64,000 nucleotides of DNA, taken from NCBI GenBank assembly GCA_010094025.1, contig ML991810.1, positions 232,049 through 296,048 of the forward strand, given 5' to 3'. The notes under the pieces were generated by a model that saw only the letters and a list, made by a program, of their open reading frames with translations, was not told the DNA's origin and searched no databases. Source of the stretch: Viridothelium virens. Its lineage: Eukaryota > Ascomycota > Dothideomycetes > Trypetheliales > Trypetheliaceae. This document shows positions 37,670 to 61,113 of the stretch, one piece after another. A program made the position numbers and the translations under genes. The stretch's first letter is position 1, and every line of letters starts with the position of its first letter.

Positions 37670-38552
37670 ATGATTGTGTATATTTATGAGGCTCACATCA
37701 ATATTACGACAATCTGCAATGTGAGTATTTGCCGAAAGATACGTGCAATTCGGTACGCCGAGACCTAGTCTAGATCGTATTCAGCCTCTACGCCGGAGCT
37801 CTGGTGCATATGTGATTTTTGGCACGTTCGAGATTCTGTAGTGATATATCAGAGGCCTGGATCTTCGTACGGGTGATCCAGAACTAGAGCACCAATCTGG
37901 ATCGTCGCTATGTTCCCATACAAAATGACCTCTCCATACACCCAACTTGGTTAGTGGTATCAGCACGCTGACTGAGCAGAATTACACTGGGAACCTTGCA
38001 CTTCTGGGGCACTCTTAAGAAAACACTATCAACTTTACACAGCCATCGTGAGAATCCCAAAACAGACAGCCCAAAACCGTCAAAAGCCTTAATTCATATA
38101 AGAAACTCCTTAGCCCACCCTTAGAGCTTTCTTGGTTTCTGGGAGTGCGGTTCTCCTACATAATACTACTACTATCCTCTCTGAACACTTTTTCCTCTTC
38201 CTTTAAGAGTATCTTGATCATCAAACGTGAAAAACGGTTGATATGAGATTAGACAGATCTTCTTCTAGAAGCCATCCTAGTTCTTTACTCCTGGACACAG
38301 TACACCTTAGAGTAATATAGCTTGAGATCATCGCTACTTATTATGCTTTTATCACCGTCAAATTTCCCATCACGAAAGCAGATTTCCCTCTGAGAGCGAG
38401 AGTTGACGCGTCAGCTCAGTAGCCTTAGGGTTCTTGACCTATTGCCAGATCAGGTGTAGCAGCACAACCACCACATAGCCTCCCTTCTACTTAGCGCTGA
38501 TACGGATTTTGAAATATTTGTGTAGCCAAACACGTTCGGAGCTATCCCGATT

Positions 38553-38667
38553 GGCTCCGTAACTGCGATAGCCTGTAGGGGACAAAACAATGGCAGAACG
38601 GTAGTAAGAATTTAATATTGTATATGCCAACTTTTTGTCCCCTAGAGGTTATCGCAGTTACGGAGGC
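38553..38667. mobile_element. MITE-like element with 35-bp imperfect terminal inverted repeats
   Basis: The left arm 38553-38587 and right arm 38633-38667 are inverted copies with three mismatches (core ctccgtaactgcgata and aggggacaaaa). They flank 45 bp of AT-rich interior, for 115 bp in all. There is no coding capacity. No perfect target-site duplication abuts the ends. It fits a non-autonomous inverted-repeat transposon. A plain long hairpin is the alternative. Confidence 0.6.
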
Positions 38668-38817
38668 AGGATTGAATTAAGCAGAAGAACAGGGATCCAA
38701 ATATGTGGGCACCGCGCCATCAGCTGCGCTTCAAAGAATCCCTAGGGTTACGTATTCCTTATACCCCTAGGAGAGTCTTAGAGAGATTAGAAAAAAAAAA
38801 TTTGAAAAAAAACTTAT

Positions 38818-38936
38818 TGAACGTACCAGGGGTCGAACCTGGAATCTCGTGATTCGTACTATGGACGGTTAGTTATAGTTATCAATCGGAATGTGTATTG
38901 CATACGTCACGCGCCTTGCCATTGGGCCATACGTCC
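38818..38936 (-). tRNA. tRNA-Arg(ACG) with a 47-bp insertion in the anticodon loop
   Basis: The minus strand folds as a full cloverleaf. The acceptor stem is GGACGTA with TACGTTC (one G-U). The D arm is GCC/GGC around an AATGG loop (A box TGGCCCAATGG). The anticodon stem is CGTGA/TCACG with loop CTACGAA, and the T arm is CCAGG/CCTGG with TTCGA (B box). The discriminator is A at 38818. A T-run typical of a Pol III terminator follows within about 10 nt. The loop is interrupted at 38905..38859 by 47 bp lying between positions 32 and 33, not at the usual 37/38 site. The insert starts GTATGC, contains ACTAAC and ends ATAG, like a spliceosomal intron. It reads the CGU/CGC Arg codons after A34-to-I editing. 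Confidence 0.72.
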
Positions 38937-39861
38937 TGAATATACTGGACTGACAATTTTTTTGAATATATTCTTTAAATAAAATTCTCTCTCTATGTCC
39001 TCTAAGTGCGGAAGTGTCGCATAGCTCGACAGCAAGTCTGCCTTAATAACTAGTAGGCATCCCAACTAGCATAAGTCCTACCTCTTTGTACTTATTTTGC
39101 ATACTGTTTAAGGTGTTTTAGGTGATGCATGTATATATGATAGTAAGGATTGAGTCTGTTGCCTGCGCTGTTTTGGCTTACCTCCTATCAGCGATATTGA
39201 AGGATATGTGCATAATGTTGCTAACACAGGAGCCCTTGTATCGATTTCTTAGCGCCTCTCACTGCACTTAGTCCATCTTCCCATTCCAAGAATAGACGGT
39301 AATCAACTTGACAAGCTGTCCTTTCAACTAAATTGATGCCTCATCCAGTCCTTTACTCCGCTCGTGTTAGATTGAGGTCTAGAACTGTTAAATTCACATA
39401 GTTTATGGGTTTTGCTGCCCATAAGATCGACCTTCTTGATGCAGTTGCTTTTTAATAAGAACCTCTGTCGATCAGTAACGATTAGGAACCCTGAGCATAA
39501 CATCAATTCGGTCACTATCGTCTAGACTGCTACATTCTATCTCATTCCATTATGAGTCTGCTATCTAGAACAGACTGCCACAATTGCAACAGATTACAAT
39601 TCCTCATGTCTATGAAAACGATCGCTTACTTCCTGTTACCAGTTATGGCAGCGACAGCTGAATCAATCAAGTCACTCACTTTAATGTGCAATTCCCAATC
39701 GTTTCACTTACTTCAATTCCACACAGTTTTTAACGGCTCGACAACGCCACCATGCACTGAAGCATTGCCTTTACTGATCCTAGGTGTCTACACTACCTGC
39801 CTTCCACGCTTTCAAATACCAAAATCCACCTCTATTGTAGAAGATCTCGAACGCTATGCTC

Positions 39862-58510: not shown

Positions 58511-61113
58511 CTAGAACAACCCCAGGATATCCTCATTATTCTTTTTCGCCCCCTGCCCCTGCTCTTGTCCTCCTGATCCTCCACCTCCCCCTCCCCCTCC
58601 TCCACCACTCATATCCAGTCCAGCAAACCCATTCATCAAATCATCCTGCGCTCCTCCACTCCCCTGCCCTCCACTCATCCCCGCTCCAATCCCACCATTG
58701 CTACTCCCAAACACCCCCATCAAATCATCCATCCCACCCCCATTCGTGCCCGCCCCCACCGCCACAGGCGTCAACCCCGCCGCCGGACTCGGTCCCCTCT
58801 GCGGCGTACCCGCCAACCCCTCGAGCCCGCTCAACCCACCACCCGGCTCCTTCTGCAAGCTCGCCGGCGCCGCGCCATCGAAGTCGATATCGAGCAGGTT
58901 CTCCGCATTATTCTGGGGCGCGGCGGCCGACGCAGAGGCGCCGGAGATAGCGGCCGCGGCAGCAGCGGCGGCGATGGGGTTCTCTTGCGCGTTCTGGCGC
59001 TGCTCTTCGATGGCGGCGCGCTGCATGGCTTCGGCGCCGAAGCGGCCGTGGCCGAGGAAGGTGGCGGGCGGTTTGTGGTAGACGGAGGCGAGGGTGGAGA
59101 GTTCGTTGAGGAGGTCTTCGAGGAGGGCGGGGGGGAGGGAGTGGATGGTTGTGGCGATGGGGGGGCGGACGGAGAGGACGACGTTCTGTGGGTTGAGTTA
59201 GTGGGAAGGGGAGATCAAGATGTTTGGGGGGCGTTGATACCTTTGTAATGTTAGGATCGCTTGAAAGGAGACGCCAATAGACATATGCACGATCCCGAAT
59301 GTCTGGATTGTCTGTTTCGGCTGTGGCAGATTGGAGCACTTTCTGCACCAAGCCTTGGGATTGGTCAGGCTTCTTTAGGAAAAGCTTGACCACTGCTGTT
59401 AAGATTTGTAGTTGTGTCTGGTAAAAGGTTAATACTCGTATAGCAGACTCTCCAATTGGTACGGACCTGAGTGAACTCCTCTGTGAAGCCGTCCACGAAG
59501 CCTGATAGAATATCTCCGGCATTGCTAATCTTTTCCGCGTACTCTCCAACAATCCAAATGAGCGACCCTCTTGCATTCGGCTCGTCTAGATCATCGATAC
59601 ATTGGCAGAGAGTCGGGATGATGCCCTCATAGCCTGGGTATTTCCGGAAAATATCCTTGATGACGACAATCGCTTCTTGCACCACGTAGTTGACCTTCGT
59701 CGCGATCAGGTCCAGCAACGTATTGACACATTTCTCGCTCGCAGCCTCAATCTTAATCGCAACCTGTCCAATTGCACGTACTGCCCGCCGCACGAAGTCC
59801 ATGTCCACCTCCATGGCATATTCCTTCAATTCTGCCAAGAGCTGGTCTACATTGCGCTCGTTCGCTATTCGTACCATGATCTCGAGTTTTTGTAGTTTAA
59901 GGTAGGGCGGATCGTTGTATTTGCAAAAGAAGACTCGCATCTCCTTGCTGAGAATTTCGGGTGATTTTTGAAGGATGAGATCAATATTGCGAAGGGCGAC
60001 ATACTGCACCTCAGGAGCGGAAGAGACGAGGGTGACTGGAATATGTTAGCAAGAGGTGTGGTTCGAATTGGACATATAGTACCAAGCGGCGGGGCCATTT
60101 TCTTCGTGTAAGTTCTTGCTAGCTCTTGATTGATAAACCTCATATGCAGAAACACCACCTTGACCGCAGCCAGGACGACACTTGGGTTGACATGTTGGAA
60201 CTGGGGCGCTACCCGCTCGCATATGTGCTCCGACTCCTTTACGTCCACAGCCCGATAGTCTGCGAGGGTGCTTAAGATTGTTACTCGGCCCCACTCCGTG
60301 CACTCATTGAGAGCCAACAATAGCTTCTTAAGCGTCGATGGTGTGATAACAAGTGCTCTTGTCTCTGGTGCCGCTTCTTGTATCTCTGCAAGTGCTGTGA
60401 CCGAATTCGCCACTACCATTGGGTTGGGATCTCCAATCAGCTCTTGAACCTGCTCCAAAAATCCGTTCTCAAGGCATAGCGACGGATTCAAGTCAAAAAG
60501 CTTCGCCACACAAAGCACCGCCGTTTTTCGAACGTATGGTGATTCATCTCGTAGAGTCTTTCGGAGGGGCTCTTCCATGTAGTCGACCATCTTCTCCACT
60601 CTTATACAGCCCATTGTCCGCACCGCCAGTGCCCGAATTAATGGGTTTGGGTCTTCGGAATCTTGAACAAAGGTATTCACGGCGAGGATGCAAAGGTCCG
60701 GATGTGATTTAGCATAGTTCCTGGCGCAAAAGGGTCAGAGATGATTGTAAATAGTGTTGACAAAAATGAACCCACATCAGATAGAGATAAACGAGCTTCT
60801 TCTGGTCCAGATCTCCTGTTGCAATGTTCTTCAGTACATCAGGAAACAGAGCTGAAACGTCTTTGCCCAGCGTCATGGACATTATTGTCTTCTGGATCGC
60901 TTCTTTTCTGGTCAAAGTTCAGTATGCCCCAGACAGTGGTCATTGCTTTCGACATGCTTACCGTTCGTAGGCATATTGTGAACTACAAGTATCCAGTCAG
61001 CACTTCGTTCTCTAAGATTGACATAGTTTTGCCTACACTAAGCCTGCTCTTAATTCAAACGTCTCGCCTTTGCGCGGCACCGCAAAAGCGCCTCTTATCC
61101 TATTGACCGCCAT
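58511..61113 (-). CDS. apl2: AP-1 clathrin adaptor complex, beta subunit
   Basis: Seven exons: 61113..61037, 60982..60962, 60907..60776, 60720..60083, 60035..59467, 59417..59241 and 59185..58511, giving 762 residues. The trunk is a textbook beta-adaptin: [47 protein letters not shown], then [55 protein letters not shown] and [13 protein letters not shown]. The hinge/C-terminus is short, Gly- and Ala-rich, with clathrin-box-like LLDIDF and a terminal DILGLF; a folded ear domain is not evident, as in other fungal AP-1 beta chains. It sorts cargo between trans-Golgi and endosomes. The 21-nt second exon and donors GTGGGT and GTCCGT are unusual but required by the conserved frame. Confidence 0.9.

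Follow-up and report, generated by a model that had tools for sequence, protein, structure and literature searches.

The splicing of tRNA precursors in eukaryotes is taught as protein work carried out at one fixed site. According to the paper on tRNAscan-SE 2.0, eukaryotic tRNA genes are limited to one intron, and the search for noncanonical introns is offered for archaea (PMC8450103). Noncanonical tRNA introns are known in archaea, Cyanidioschyzon merolae, and the nucleomorphs of cryptophytes and chlorarachniophytes, and, according to a review, they resemble the introns considered here in lying outside position 37/38, in occurring several per gene, and in interrupting the D, T, and anticodon arms (PMC4090602). 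They differ in that the archaeal and C. merolae introns depend on bulge–helix–bulge motifs and the tRNA endonuclease, and the tRNA introns of the Guillardia nucleomorph are only 3–24 nt long; no word beginning with “spliceosom-” occurs in that review (PMC4090602).

Spliceosomal introns outside mRNA have been described as well. The U6 snRNA gene of Schizosaccharomyces pombe, as presented in PMC8917221, is a Pol III gene with an mRNA-type intron removed by the spliceosome; however, this is one snRNA gene, whose product is itself a part of the spliceosome, whereas here many tRNA genes are concerned, and the U6 matches are full-length. The rDNA of lichens (Cladonia grayi and others) contains short spliceosomal introns (57 bp in C. 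grayi) that are removed from rRNA, but the host is rRNA and not tRNA, which the main text never mentions (PMC8527467). Spliceosomal introns in tRNA genes are not reported in the titles and abstract beginnings of the matches listed for the open-access literature.

The window, i.e., the whole stretch of 64,000 nucleotides analyzed here, lies on contig C40 of a 30.7-Mb genome and contains an interrupted tRNA-Arg(ACG) gene with the following features:

38818..38936, minus strand: tRNA-Arg(ACG) gene, unspliced, 119 nt (ARAGORN and Rfam)
38906..38936, minus strand: exon 1, tRNA positions 1–32, 31 nt, without position 17
38859..38905, minus strand: GT...AG intron, 47 nt, between positions 32 and 33
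38900..38905, minus strand: 5′ splice site GTATGC
38868..38874, minus strand: branch site AACTAAC, with the branch A lying 10 nt before the end of the intron
38859..38861, minus strand: 3′ splice site TAG
38818..38858, minus strand: exon 2, positions 33–73, anticodon ACG
38919..38929, minus strand: A box TGGCCCAATGG, intact
38829..38839, minus strand: B box GGTTCGACCCC, intact
38965..38970, minus strand: TATATT upstream of the gene, at about -34
38805..38812, minus strand: T8 run, resembling a Pol III terminator, 5 nt past the gene

With the intron position left free, ARAGORN finds tRNA-Arg(acg) and places an intron of 47 nt between C32 and U33, and the place and length that the initial annotation had assigned to the insertion proved to be exact. 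In a local scan, the gene scores 43.3 bits against Rfam RF00005; nothing was reported for it by plain ARAGORN with bacterial settings, and the whole-window Rfam scan at the gathering score reported no tRNA. The spliced tRNA is 72 nt long, with discriminator A. The initial annotation had described every stem as paired, which holds in full for the acceptor (7/7, one G–U), anticodon (5/5), and T (5/5) stems, whereas the D stem has three pairs, and the fourth pair of the Rfam model is non-standard. The other signs of a functional tRNA-Arg(ACG) noted there, namely the A and B boxes, U33–ACG–A37, and the downstream T run, are all found together with the cloverleaf. About 140 nt beyond the T run, the window has an inverted repeat (38552–38595 and 38625–38668) with 44-nt arms, 86% complementary and 29 nt apart.

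The boundary of the insert is fixed, with zero slide possible, and of six GT...AG segments of 35–100 nt tested in the gene, one, 38859–38905, leaves a tRNA according to ARAGORN. The intron thus lies at 32/33 and not at the canonical Sen-type position 37/38. An intron forced to 37/38 was tried and rejected, as the result is an Arg body that bears G33 and reads as tRNA-Ile(TAT); hence a 37/38 reading, proposed earlier as the outcome that would remove the anomaly, leaves it standing. The insert reads GTATGC...AACTAAC...CATAG and has the marks of a U2-type intron, that is, GT...AG ends, G at +5, a branch site, and likeness to local mRNA introns. The fungal spliceosomal grammar ascribed to it in the initial annotation is therefore there to be read, and the same grammar occurs in 22 more insertions in this genome.

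These were found among 34 nuclear tRNA genes, collected by an Rfam tRNA search and B-box patterns, with the mitochondrial contig C129 set aside. The set is incomplete, since 50 of the 84 GGTTCAANYCC places in the genome (three of them mitochondrial) lie outside the reading, whereas the nuclear GGTTCGANYCC places are all within the loci read; B-box patterns would also miss genes with a split B box. Small slices at eight GGTTCAA places contained no convincing tRNA. Absent from this incomplete set of 34 genes are, among others, Phe, Tyr, elongator Met, and every Leu but CAA. Twenty of the 34 genes carry 23 insertions outside 37/38, which hit the acceptor stem and the D, anticodon, variable, and T arms. 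The sites, in our own numbering, in which D-loop positions may slide by a few bases, are:

acceptor stem 5/6: Thr-TGT (L117), Arg-TCG (L118)
D arm 12/13: Lys-CTT (L031 and L119)
D arm 14/15: Gln-TTG (L078)
D arm 15/16: Ala-CGC (L120)
D arm 16/18: Arg-CCT (L068), Pro-CGG (L098)
D arm 17/18: Asn (L112)
D arm 18/19: Ala-AGC (L091), Ser-GCT (L092)
D arm 22–24: Leu-CAA (L074), Trp (L030)
D arm 24/25: Asp (L085 and L075)
26/27: Thr-CGT (L111), iMet (L116)
31/32: Asn (L112)
32/33: the window tRNA-Arg(ACG)
33/34: Ser-CGA (L029)
variable arm: Ser-AGA (L110)
T arm 53/54: Thr-TGT (L117)
T arm 59/60: Arg-TCG (L118)

Some readings needed individual decisions. For Gln-TTG, a 95-nt intron leaves no proper tRNA in ARAGORN and was rejected; the structure scan gives GTGCGT...ACAG, 99 nt, and Gln(TTG). 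Spliced L085 is called Asn(att) by ARAGORN and Asp(GTC) both by our solver and by its paralogue L075. In L025 (Ile-TAT), a 37/38 intron alone suffices in our reading. The locus L023 (C1:423895) is tRNA-like, with a tentative GTG anticodon reading and a distorted anticodon stem.

All 23 off-site insertions have GT...AG ends, with G at +5 in 21 and A or G at +3 in 20, and they are 46–99 nt long (median 51). With the earlier 95-nt boundary of Gln-TTG, 15 of the 23 have CTRAY at a distance of 9–25 nt to the 3′ end (mean 2.1, maximum 8 in 2000 runs of interior shuffles) and 20 have YTRAY there (mean 5.0, maximum 13, also in 2000 runs), the three introns without YTRAY having CTAA followed by A or G instead, and a single boundary is possible in seven. 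As the boundaries had been picked by eye, we ran a scan that scores the cloverleaf fit alone, by a scheme of our own, on the 16 genes whose T arm is normal and which are interrupted once outside 37/38, leaving out L119 as well as L112, L117, and L118, each of which has two such insertions. GT...AG is among the exact top solutions in nine of the 16 genes (three for the next pair) and within one score unit of the top in all 16 (eight for the next pair).

Numerous insertions of like length could also stem from a small mobile element whose termini are GT and AG by coincidence. Intron pairs that outscore every one of 20 shuffles show a weak excess (23 of 253, with 12 expected), but the Asp paralogues alone stand out (8.0 above the best shuffle, 4.0 for the next pair), and the interiors otherwise form no family, which makes such an element scarcely credible as the source.

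In order to compare the insertions with mRNA introns, one gene confirmed by homology was used, encoding the AP-1 beta subunit at 58.5–61 kb of the window. The protein encoded by its joined exons can be aligned to AP-1 complex subunit beta-1 over all four junctions (E 2e-214), and the introns are:

60721..60775, minus strand: 55 nt, GTGGGT..CTGAC..CCAG
60036..60082, minus strand: 47 nt, GTACTA..CTAAC..CCAG
59418..59466, minus strand: 49 nt, GTCCGT..TTAAC..CCAG
59186..59240, minus strand: 55 nt, GTATCA..CTAAC..ACAG

They are 47–55 nt long, with the branch A 10–14 nt from the end, and their 5′ sites (GTGGGT, GTACTA, GTCCGT, GTATCA) are looser than those in the tRNA set. The off-site tRNA introns share grammar, size, and branch distance with these four local introns. 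A spliceosomal intron captured by a Pol III gene, one of three possibilities raised in the initial annotation, is thus strongly favored, as far as sequence can tell, by 22 more insertions with GT...AG ends, spread over 19 other tRNA genes, and by the match to the branch motif and length of the AP-1 beta introns. With a probability of about 0.88, we propose that the tRNA-Arg(ACG) gene in the window is transcribed by Pol III and that its insert is a spliceosomal intron of the U2 type, to be removed by the spliceosome; the genome would then have no fewer than 23 introns of this kind, distributed over 20 or more nuclear tRNA genes.

The genome also has ordinary tRNA introns. Nine cleanly read 37/38 introns are 8–18 nt long, none of them GT...AG. 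Such introns coexist with the off-site ones in at least 12 of the 20 invaded genes according to ARAGORN or our solver (L085, L075, L074, L078, L092, L098, L110, L112, L118, L120, L029, L030), but differ from them in position, length, and grammar. L117 is probably a thirteenth such gene: after splicing, ARAGORN reads it as Thr(tgt) with a distorted anticodon arm because the 37/38 intron goes unrecognized. The machinery that acts on 37/38 introns is represented by two matches to tRNA-endonuclease (Sen-type) domains and one strong match to a Trl1-type ligase. The ligase, the introns, and the size of the genome suggest a fungus-like host.

The presence of Sen-type genes bears on a second possibility raised in the initial annotation, noncanonical tRNA introns proper, that is, ectopic introns with a bulge–helix–bulge cut by Sen as in archaea, Cyanidioschyzon, and nucleomorphs. 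Archaea likewise have introns at 53/54 and 59/60 and tRNA genes with several introns, as stated in the review (PMC4090602), and the first intron of Asn L112, as it happens, forms four out of four central-helix pairs. Under a simplified definition of the motif, a 4-bp central helix in which exon 1 pairs with the 3′ end of the intron, however, the central-helix test gives no signal, with 32 pairs over 21 introns compared to 34.0 in partner shuffles, and one out of four pairs in the window gene. Such a mechanism would also leave the GT...AG ends, the branch site, and G at +5 unexplained, and the lengths of the off-site insertions fit mRNA introns and speak against it. Taking all this into account, we regard bulge–helix–bulge introns as highly unlikely here.

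Another possibility, also present in the initial annotation, is a disabled copy, in which the insertion has killed tRNA-Arg(ACG) and another tRNA serves in its place. Eukaryotic tRNA genes with short insertions are usually regarded as pseudogenes, according to the same review (PMC4090602), and the second Lys-CTT gene, L119, looks decayed. On the other hand, the exons of the window gene are intact, and its cloverleaf, its TATA box, and a T run resembling a terminator are all retained. Nor can as many as 20 out of 34 genes all be nonfunctional; they include the sole copies read of iMet, Asn, and Trp.

The count of other tRNA-Arg(ACG) genes, suggested earlier as a check, bears on the same question. 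BLAST of the spliced tRNA against the genome (E<=10) finds the window locus alone; as its initial step scored a single candidate, a diverged copy may have escaped it. A pattern of U33–ACG–A37 with the B box occurs at five places (12 for a reversed control pattern), and the three of these that were read are the window gene and two that are not tRNA-like, the remaining pair being at C20:363346 and C33:257155. Thus, no second nuclear gene is seen among the BLAST matches and three of the five pattern places, which falls short of full exclusion; the mitochondrial contig C129 has an Arg(acg) gene of its own. We therefore consider a dead gene in the window most improbable.

Paralogues offer a view of the history of these introns. 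The Asp genes L085 and L075 share the 24/25 site, where their introns measure 46 and 51 nt, and the Lys-CTT genes L031 and L119 share the 12/13 site, where the lengths are 51 and 50 nt; both pairs keep the intron position and splice signals, and this sharing appears to show the age of the off-site introns. Prokaryote genomes, scanned with a 26-base exon-2 sequence for a relative filed there by mistake, gave no match. L119 (C63:130749, plus strand) has a short T loop, no tRNA is called in it by ARAGORN after intron removal, and it is probably decaying.

The flanks of the genes provide signs of activity and bear on the polymerase. A run of T5 or longer lies at most 60 nt downstream of all 34 tRNA genes, compared to 123 of 4000 random 60-nt stretches of the window. 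Of the 34 genes read, 23 have TATAW between -55 and -15, usually close to -35, and the other 11 are without it at the usual place; in the controls, it occurs in three to six of 33–34 in other upstream windows, in 16 of 136 downstream, and in 151 of 4000 random stretches. An upstream TATA box is a promoter habit of fission yeast tRNA genes. A T6 run that might stop Pol III lies within the intron of Trp (L030). In several genes (L117, L118, and others), D-loop or T-arm introns divide the A or B box at the DNA level, so promoter recognition must differ there. L117 (C71:137197) and L118 (C71:20429) each have two off-site introns, one in the acceptor stem and the other in the T arm, with the B box split.

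The A and B boxes interrupted in some genes and the TATA boxes would also agree with spliceosomal introns in mRNA-like precursors made by RNA polymerase II, a reading that differs from the proposed one in the polymerase alone. However, the T run just downstream of every one of the 34 genes and the narrow range of TATA positions around -35 are in keeping with Pol III, and the window gene retains both boxes, which renders Pol II transcription unlikely. Three U6 snRNA genes (C116:32817, C51:305, C38:47563) give full-length Rfam matches in 100 nt, and thus not all Pol III genes have been invaded.

Under the proposed reading of spliceosomal introns in Pol III genes, transcription of pre-tRNA-Arg(ACG) would be directed by the TATA box near -35, seen in the sequence, together with the internal boxes, and would end at the T run. 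U1 and U2 would then recognize GTATGC, AACTAAC, and TAG, and the spliceosome would release the intron as a lariat and join C32 to U33, yielding an intact tRNA-Arg(ACG). In doubly interrupted genes, the 37/38 introns would be removed by the Sen endonuclease and the Trl1-type ligase, genes for which are present, and for introns in the acceptor stem and T arm splicing would have to precede the folding and maturation of the tRNA.

The introns themselves would be ordinary spliceosomal ones; what would be new is the class of host genes and what follows for tRNA maturation. Judging by the genes read, spliceosomal introns have likely spread through much of the nuclear tRNA set, including the sole copies read of iMet, Asn, Trp, and Arg-ACG, in every arm and even in the Pol III boxes. 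Translation would then need the spliceosome as a third route of tRNA splicing beside Sen and self-splicing, with the spliceosome and Sen both acting on the same precursor. As plain scans missed the window gene, annotations of the tRNA genes in such genomes may be seriously incomplete. If the proposed reading is true, the spliceosome handles short, structured Pol III RNAs at scale, and has done so for long enough for the introns to be retained in paralogues, and the gain of introns, cap-independent splicing, and the rewiring of promoters (split A and B boxes, TATA near -35) become open to direct tests. The sequence data thus suggest that in this organism the machine that splices mRNA is needed by the cell for making its tRNAs.
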